DNA of 64,000 nucleotides from Candidatus Gallionella acididurans (lineage in GTDB: Bacteria; Pseudomonadota; Gammaproteobacteria; Burkholderiales; Gallionellaceae): the NCBI GenBank assembly GCA_001577345.1, contig LSLI01000004.1, positions 1 through 64,000 on the forward strand, given 5' to 3'. Below, one piece after another: positions 60,791-64,000 of the stretch (the stretch's first letter is position 1; the number at the start of each line of letters is the position of its first letter). A program made the position numbers and the translations under genes. The notes below the pieces were generated by a model. That model worked only from the letters and a program-made list of their open reading frames with translations. It had not been told where the DNA came from and did no database searches.

Positions 60791-61111
60791 TTAAATGGGG
60801 ACAGACCACGTTTTGTTTTTACTGATTTCCTCATGCGTCCACAACGGATCGAGGTCTGCGCCATTCGGCCAAGTAAGTGCGCCGAGTTCAATGCTGACTT
60901 TCTGAAACAACTGAGCATCTTTGAGCGCCGCGTAAATCCCCGCACCAGGACTATTCACCAGCGCCGACATATCCACGATGCCGTTCGTGCCATCGTTGCA
61001 TGTGATTGAGAGACGATAATCGGGCAGCATGTTAACAGCGCGCACGCGCCAGGCTGCCGCCGCCCTTAATCCAACGGCGATATTTTCTTGGGCAACTGTT
61101 TCGCTTGACAT
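60791..61111 (-). CDS. DUF2442-type protein
   Basis: VRAVNMLPDYRLSITCNDGTNGIVDMSALV...LFQKVSIELGALTWPNGADLDPLW. Confidence 0.85.
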   Translation of the reverse strand: MSSETVAQENIAVGLRAAAAWRVRAVNMLPDYRLSITCNDGTNGIVDMSALVNSPGAGIYAALKDAQLFQKVSIELGALTWPNGADLDPLWTHEEISKNKTWSVPI

Positions 61112-61326
61112 AGATTCCAATCCTCCATTAACTCGGCACGATGTAGTGCCGCCCATTCGAGCACGAGAGCTTGCGCGCGTCTCGGCAAACTACCCCTGAT
61201 CACGTCCAGTGTCCGAATATCAATCAAGGCCTCATATTCGCCATACAGTGCATGAAAATGGGGCGGCGCATGCTCACGCCAGAACATCTGGATCACGATC
61301 CCGAAAAACTGACTGATGGTTGGCAT
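61066..61326 (-). CDS. DUF4160-type protein (partner of DUF2442)
   Basis: MPTISQFFGIVIQMFWREHAPPHFHALYGEYEALIDIRTLDVIRGSLPRRAQALVLEWAALHRAELMEDW. Confidence 0.9.
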   Translation of the reverse strand: MPTISQFFGIVIQMFWREHAPPHFHALYGEYEALIDIRTLDVIRGSLPRRAQALVLEWAALHRAELMEDWNLCQAKQLPKKISPLD

Positions 61327-61393
61327 GCACTCCCTCCTTATTGGCTAGTTTAGCAGCAACCCTACCCTTCGACAGGCTTAGGGCGAAAGGCTG

Positions 61394-61434
61394 CCCCCTC
61401 TCCCCTGCCCTCTCCCGCGAGGGGAGAGGGAGTG
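61394..61434. repeat. GC-rich palindromic repeat, intergenic copy
   Basis: ccccctctcccctgccctctcccgcgaggggagagggagtgcgg. Confidence 0.8.
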
Positions 61435-61481
61435 CGGTTAGCGACTGACCGGCTTGTACCAAATCCGCTTTGGCTTCGCTC

Positions 61482-61531
61482 CTAGCCATTCGACTAAGCG
61501 AGCATACGACGCTCGCTAAGTCGCTGGTTAT
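61482..61531. repeat. 50-bp palindromic element, copy A
   Basis: ctagccattcgactaagcgagcatacgacgctcgctaagtcgctggttat. Confidence 0.9.
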
Positions 61532-61618
61532 CACCCAGCCGCTTGCGCTTGTCCGCCTCGTATTCCTGATAGTTGCCGTCGAAAAAGTTTCAGTGCGAAT
61601 CACCTCCTGATGAAACCA

Positions 61619-61668
61619 CTAGCCATTCGACTAGGCCGCCACAATACAGCGACCAAGTCGCTGGATAC
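61619..61668. repeat. 50-bp palindromic element, copy B
   Basis: ctagccattcgactaggccgccacaatacagcgaccaagtcgctggatac. Confidence 0.9.
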
Positions 61669-61729
61669 GCCGCAAGGATGTGGGTGGCGATGCGGTCGAA
61701 CAACCAGCGGCGCGGGATGGGGACATCAC

Positions 61730-62017
61730 TTATCGCGCATTGGCTGCACTACTTTTGGTAGTACTACGTTTAATGGTCGTAGCACTTGCTGGCCGTTTTT
61801 TAATAACTGCCAAACGCGCAACACCCACCAGTGATTCAAGCGCCGAATTCACTGCCTCATTGGTCGGAAATATTTTTGCCAACTCTGGAGTGAGTAACAC
61901 CAGATTGCTGCCTTTCTGGAAGGCTGCGTGATGTTTGCCGCGGACGCCTTTTTCGAGGTCTTCGCGACGATATTCGGCGCGCATTTCTTCAGTCTTCTTC
62001 ATAAATTTTCCTTTCAC
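61730..62017 (-). CDS. Putative antitoxin partner of the BrnT-like toxin
   Basis: Short ORF downstream of and overlapping the brnT-like gene; KGSNLVLLTPELAKIFPTNEAVNSALESLVGVARLA resembles BrnA/CopG-like partners. Confidence 0.7.
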   Translation of the reverse strand: MKGKFMKKTEEMRAEYRREDLEKGVRGKHHAAFQKGSNLVLLTPELAKIFPTNEAVNSALESLVGVARLAVIKKRPASATTIKRSTTKSSAANAR

Positions 62018-62261
62018 GTTTAGTAGCTACTCGTGCACTGACCAAGCGAATCTTGCCCCGGCGCTCCGTGTATATCACTGCAAGAACTCGCCCTTTGCTG
62101 GACATACCAAACGACAACCAGCGCACCTCGCCCACTGAATGATCCGGATCGGGAAAAGCAAGCTCCATTGCATCCCCGAATACGGAAGCCGCTTTTTCGA
62201 AGCTGACTTTATGCTTCTTGAAGTTTTGCGCAGCTTTAACTGGATCGGCTTCAAACTCCAT
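61989..62261 (-). CDS. BrnT-family toxin
   Basis: MEFEADPVKAAQNFKKHKVSFEKAASVFGDAMELAFPDPDHSVGEVRWLSFGMSSKGRVLAVIYTERRGKIRLVSARVATKRERKIYEED. Confidence 0.92.
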   Translation of the reverse strand: MEFEADPVKAAQNFKKHKVSFEKAASVFGDAMELAFPDPDHSVGEVRWLSFGMSSKGRVLAVIYTERRGKIRLVSARVATKRERKIYEED

Positions 62262-62333
62262 GAGTCATTATTCCATGTGCTGAATTTGTTGTGTGGCTAA
62301 CTTCTCCCCCACCCAACCCTCTGGGTGAAACAA

Positions 62334-62382
62334 CTAGCCATTCGACTAGGCTGCAAACGACCGCAGCCAAGTCGCCGGTTAT
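62334..62382. repeat. Palindromic element, copy C
   Basis: ctagccattcgactaggctgcaaacgaccgcagccaagtcgccggttat; splits a GC-rich palindrome (62302-62330 / 62383-62402). Confidence 0.9.
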
Positions 62383-62463
62383 CCCGGAGGGAGAGGGGAT
62401 GAGAGCGGTTAGCGGCTGATCGGCTTGTACAGCATCCGCACGGCTTCGCCCTTTCTTCCATCT

Positions 62464-64000
<1,537 letters not shown>

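Follow-up and report, generated by a model that had tools for sequence, protein, structure and literature searches.

Three similar hairpins lie at positions 61482-61531, 61619-61668 and 62334-62382 of the window (the whole stretch of 64,000 nucleotides that was analysed), and they raise the question of whether they are copies of a mobile element and, if so, of what moves it. These coordinates match those given beforehand in an earlier note, which had described a recent, small structured insertion element of 50 bp with a covarying stem and had pointed to a RAYT/Y1 transposase. All three copies were present, and each was recovered in its own genome by a covariance model built from 35 copies (E values of 7.6e-13, 3.6e-14, and 3.8e-12). 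The sequence AGCCATTCGACTA had exactly three perfect matches across the window, all of them within these hairpins. The features of the locus are as follows.

61482..61531, + strand: copy 1, comprising CTAG, the hairpin and a TTAT end, with arms of subfamily A; model match at 61470-61531, 63.4 bits
61609..61668, + strand: copy 2, a complete 60-bp element, GATGAAACCACTAGCC...GGATAC; model match at 61607-61668, 68.3 bits
62323..62382, + strand: copy 3, element GGGTGAAACAACTAGCC...GGTTAT; model match at 62322-62382, 60.7 bits
61619..61622, + strand: copy 2, CTAG tetranucleotide at the foot of its hairpin, matching the REP/IS200 guide in position (by comparison with PMC8266576)
61482-61485 and 62334-62337: CTAG tetranucleotide in the other two window copies
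61430..61710, no strand assigned: ettA-tail pseudocopy broken by copies 1 and 2; intact counterpart at 62401-62632

When folded as single-stranded DNA, the two outer copies were far more stable than shuffled sequences (z of -4.2 and -4.5), and the middle copy folded less strongly relative to shuffles (z of -2.8) because its inner stem is imperfect. Copies 2 and 3 are each directly preceded by CT (61607-61608 and 62321-62322, respectively). The hairpin part of the unit described earlier stood, whereas its length of 50 bp did not: the real unit is approximately 60 bp and starts further upstream, at a leader that begins at 61609 in copy 2 and at 62323 in copy 3. Copy 1 has lost this leader, with the flank CTTCGCTC standing in its place. 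As had been claimed, the copies break older sequence, two of them in the ettA-tail pseudocopy and copy 3 in a GC-rich palindrome (CCCTCT|CCCGGAGGG), and the pseudocopy and the intact tail together provide a near-empty-site comparison for copies 1 and 2. That these insertions are recent was not borne out for the window copies, in view of the missing leader of copy 1 and the imperfect stem of copy 2.

The ettA-tail pseudocopy is separated from the intact tail by a BrnT toxin gene (PF04365) and a small partner gene that overlaps it, and genes for DUF4160 and DUF2442 proteins lie on the other side of the pseudocopy (window 60791-62261). The duplicated ettA tail suggests that a toxin-antitoxin segment was inserted at the 3' end of ettA.

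The usual unit, numbered from the first base behind the target CT, has a length of 60 nt and consists of a 10-nt leader, GATGAAACTA, followed by CTAG at positions 11-14 and by one bulged hairpin ending in GGTTAT; shorter forms of 54 and 59 nt are also present. The 5' side of the hairpin comprises the stem CCA, an internal loop (two bases versus one), CGACT, an A.A mismatch and seven variable stem pairs. The loop has seven bases, commonly AAANNAC, and the return arm ends in TTAT. Each 60 nt contains one hairpin, not a subterminal hairpin at each end. The foot tetranucleotide was CTAG in 228 of 281 copies, ATAG in 31, TTAG in 6 and GTAG in 1, and its fourth base, G, was invariant among 168 full-length 60-mers.

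Within the window, copies 1 and 3 carry the evidence for covariation of the stem, and across the genome this covariation is strong. Among 35 aligned copies, compensatory changes on both sides were found in 12 of 18 stem pairs, and the covariation score was 0.295, compared with 0.104 in shuffles and with far lower values in every slid register. Four arm types were distinguished (TTCGACTA/AAGTCGC, TCTGACTA/AAGTCAT, TTCCACTA/AAGTGGC, and TCCCACTA/AAGTGGT), and these were always matched, with zero cross-combination in 234 copies. Even the basal stem was swapped in one tandem unit (CTAAGTA..TACTTAT). Arm pairing is under strong structural constraint. The covariation, the matched arm types and the replaced basal stem therefore bear out the claim that the stem is kept as structure and not as sequence, and the leader, the tetranucleotide and the end are kept as sequence.

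A pattern search of the genome that allowed up to two mismatches yielded 50 sites, compared with 1 for the reversed control, and the covariance model gave approximately 86 matches in the 3.43-Mb genome at E < 0.01. Three different repeats exist with and without the element inside the same genome. The repeat GGCGAGGACT|GTCTGAG is filled in L006, L008, and L052 and empty in L382, L383, and L385; GCGAGCACT|GTTCGAG is filled in L007 and empty in L383 and L006; and CGCCTCCT|CGCAATGAC (generalised as CGCCTYCT|CGCAATGAC) is filled in L019, L020, and L030, with 35 uninterrupted matches. The joins of filled versus empty sites are exact, with neither duplication nor loss of the target. Moreover, 21 copies are nested within another copy, almost always at NACT|AGCC, and tandem copies share the junction GGTTAT|GATAGAAC, the outcome predicted for entry of a second copy into a CT that has already been used.

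The unit was directly preceded by CT in 186 of 229 copies (81%), compared with a background of 5.2% in the flanks. Approximately 20 copies were preceded by TT rather than CT, and most of the 12 copies scored as TG proved to be CTCT with an extra G. At its right end the unit has A|T rather than C|T. As its last base is T, there is a one-base ambiguity in where the cut falls, and a left cut at C|T with a right cut at A|T is equally possible. The further genome copies, the filled and empty sites of the three repeats and the nested insertions support the proposal of a small structured insertion element, which had been staked on the existence of such copies and empty sites. The element is mobile, with about 60 nt inserting seamlessly at CT without target duplication. 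A preference for hairpin-forming targets was rejected as a general rule, in that joined flanks folded no better than nearby CT controls (p = 0.10).

The nested copies in the organism's own genome (L018, L028, L037, L042, and L050) belong mostly to arm subfamilies B and D and lie within A or C, which suggests that B and D moved more recently.

These junctions also bear on other kinds of mobile hairpin. A reading as a MITE of a DDE transposon was rejected on junction sequence, given that comparison of empty with filled sites revealed no target duplication. Integron attC sites are bulged hairpins that are recombined as single strands, and the present hairpins, likewise bulged, might on that likeness be attC-like or other tyrosine-recombinase sites inserted at secondary sites. 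Inspection of the copies and junctions, however, showed that GTTRRRY/RYYYAAC boxes are missing from the expected positions, that the target is C|T rather than G|TT, and that the dispersed copies have no attached cassette. We therefore rejected the attC reading on junction sequence and regard it as barely conceivable.

Most copies lie beside gene ends (53 convergent, 50+37 co-directional, and 11 divergent). The frequent position at convergent gene ends, together with the strong covariation, would suit a conserved regulatory RNA hairpin or terminator that is kept by descent and copied by gene conversion rather than by transposition. The occurrence of filled and empty copies of unrelated repeats, nesting at an exact point and copies on phage contigs nevertheless require movement, and a search of Rfam with the element matched no family. 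Such an RNA origin is highly improbable, although the element, once inserted, could still have a role as a hairpin in RNA.

The mobile element is family-restricted and has spread through most of the Gallionellaceae, whose members oxidise iron. It was present in 35 of 36 sampled congeners and, across the family, in 103 of the 120 genomes and in all but one of 15 genera, with copy numbers ranging from 0 to approximately 90 per genome. A model scan of 24 genomes from other families of the same order found no copies, and among 273 other genomes of the class only one, G292, had the element, in a single copy. Named matches were nearly all from Gallionella, Sideroxydans, Ferrigenium or unnamed Gallionellaceae/Nitrosomonadales. 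A search of a literature library found no paper on palindromic repeats of Gallionellaceae. Two IMG/VR contigs (L320 and L321) carry copies among phage-like structural genes, and the element thus enters phage genomes as well; a search of plasmid and phage record collections gave no match.

Two closed genomes, one of them outside Gallionellaceae, contain a single high-scoring copy each (G138:C1:2075233 and G292:C1:1299731), and these are possibly recent arrivals. The copy on L266, a contig labelled Sulfuricaulis, sits in a CTCT palindrome just as the copy of Gallionella L249 does; the contig is probably misbinned, or the copy was transferred.

The top strand of the element was found on the lagging-strand template in a ratio of 82:46 among 128 full copies from five genomes (p = 0.0019), a skew carried mainly by the closed genome G064 (18:4), in which it is strongest, and by G007 (31:18). 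The two genomes added to this set gave, on their own, only 16:12 toward the lagging-strand template, and GC skew of 8-kb loci, used as a proxy for replication, revealed no significant strand skew. This lean is moderate; it fits the known habit of IS200/IS605 transposases, which favour the lagging-strand template (PMC6006769).

TnpA-REP cuts single-stranded REPs at C|T and joins them to the T, and in one system positions 3 and 4 (A3G4) of GTAG at the hairpin foot have been proposed to select C|T (PMC8266576). Changing GTAG to CTAG in the S. maltophilia system only lowered cleavage, whereas changes at positions 3 and 4 abolished it. The CTAG of the element has the same foot position and the same A3G4 as the GTAG of TnpA-REP systems. 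From the C|T junctions, this CTAG with A3G4 and the lagging-strand lean, we infer a Y1/HUH enzyme, a single-strand intermediate and guide pairing; the element is probably a non-autonomous single-hairpin REP-like unit that is moved as single-stranded DNA by such an enzyme in trans. The transposase (RAYT/TnpA-REP or IS200-like) would bind the hairpin on single-stranded DNA, largely that of the lagging-strand template, and the AG of CTAG would select the C|T site. Cuts would be made at C|TGATGAAAC on the left and at GGTTA|T on the right, and the excised strand would be joined into another C|T, with one hairpin serving both ends. There is about an even chance that the 60-nt hairpin with its CTAG guide is a two-ends-in-one transposon, a complete unit moved at C|T in trans that has spread through nearly the whole family.

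IS200/IS605 elements are known for inserting seamlessly behind a short fixed dinucleotide and for a lagging-strand bias (PMC6006769), and the organism's own genome encodes an IS200-type TnpA. The element might thus have arisen, as a fragment of one end or by deletion, from a two-ended IS200/IS605 element that is still somewhere in the family; this would predict a tnpA with CT|GATGAAAC as its left flank and ..GGTTAT| as its right flank. The unit, however, has one hairpin instead of two and combines an LE-like leader and an RE-like end within 60 nt, no autonomous copy was seen, and scanning of the IS200-type loci L199 and L200 with the model gave no significant match. We consider this derivation very unlikely.

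For the favoured reading of a single-hairpin unit moved in trans, the link to a RAYT or other Y1 enzyme drawn in the earlier note fits the junction chemistry, whereas the expected enrichment of a transposase near the copies was not found. None of 80 Y1/RAYT loci scanned with the model has the element as its own flanking repeat, and clustering of the gene neighbours of 232 copies revealed no gene family enriched beside them; no cognate transposase was found in either set. The organism's own genome contains four Y1 genes, one of which is a RAYT with GTCGGGTTA..TAACCCGAC repeats of its own on its flanks. RAYT count and element copy number were weakly correlated (rho = 0.34, p = 0.038), and G022 has 89 copies and no detected RAYT in a genome that is 83% complete.

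The weak correlation and the abundance of RAYTs in the genus accord with the element being simply the REP of a single resident RAYT (a REPtron), dispersed in the manner of known REPs, whose cognate RAYT was lost or is unassembled in the sampled genomes, as do the similar size class, the hairpin with a foot tetranucleotide, the C|T preference and the location mostly beside gene ends. Set against these similarities are the tetranucleotide CTAG instead of GT[AG]G, the 10-nt leader that travels with the hairpin, the different GTAG hairpin owned by each of the short RAYTs examined across the genus, and the absence, from the sampled loci, of any RAYT that has the element as its own flanking REP. An ordinary REPtron is therefore an unlikely source.

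Many RAYT genes are present in Gallionellaceae, each flanked by a different GTAG-type REP hairpin (L141-L164 and others), and these pairs constitute a rich set for the study of RAYT-REP specificity. A second, related hairpin family with a different leader, such as AGCTTTGCATAGCC, is embedded in REPs associated with RAYTs, in either the loop or an arm, and is arrayed in tandem in L044. Cousin hairpins of this kind were found near RAYTs at the following positions.

L142:8572-8919
L437:1630-1677
L438:2614-2660

Their location inside REPs accounts for this proximity to RAYTs without their being the cognate repeat.

Comparison with known systems shows that the element is neither a canonical GTAG REP nor a REPIN, and that it is no two-ended derivative of IS200/IS605. 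Like the REPs of REPtrons, it occurs in high copy number at gene ends as a short, bulged DNA hairpin whose 5' foot bears a tetranucleotide, and it shares with them the C|T dinucleotide, which is seen for the element at insertion junctions and is explained in REPs by A3G4. It differs from REPs in having CTAG rather than GT[AG]G, a conserved 10-nt leader that belongs to the unit, exact insertions with visible empty sites and no linked cognate RAYT. REPINs are likewise miniature, non-autonomous mobile repeats and are tied, as the element probably is, to Y1 chemistry, but they are inverted doublets, whereas the element inserts as a single hairpin with empty sites. With IS200/IS605 elements (IS608 and ISDra2) and their non-autonomous derivatives (PATEs), it shares the guide position at the hairpin foot and duplication-free insertion on the 3' side of a short fixed target, and its moderate lean toward the lagging-strand template would match their preference, but it is only about 60 nt long, has one hairpin rather than one per end and carries no gene. 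MITEs of DDE transposons are also short, non-autonomous and palindromic, and the element differs from them in its lack of target duplication and of terminal inverted repeats in the DDE sense.

Single REPs have been regarded as defunct or dead remnants (PMC3116915). REPs are cut and joined in vitro by TnpA-REP, and their dissemination pathway is, according to the authors of that work, still being worked out (PMC8266576). For the present single-hairpin unit, the boundaries, target rule, empty sites and nested insertions can be read directly from genomes, which defines precisely the substrates with which single-hairpin transposition could be tested biochemically. The range of copy numbers across Gallionellaceae is a natural one for finding the enzyme, and the element illustrates the spread of very short palindromic repeats.
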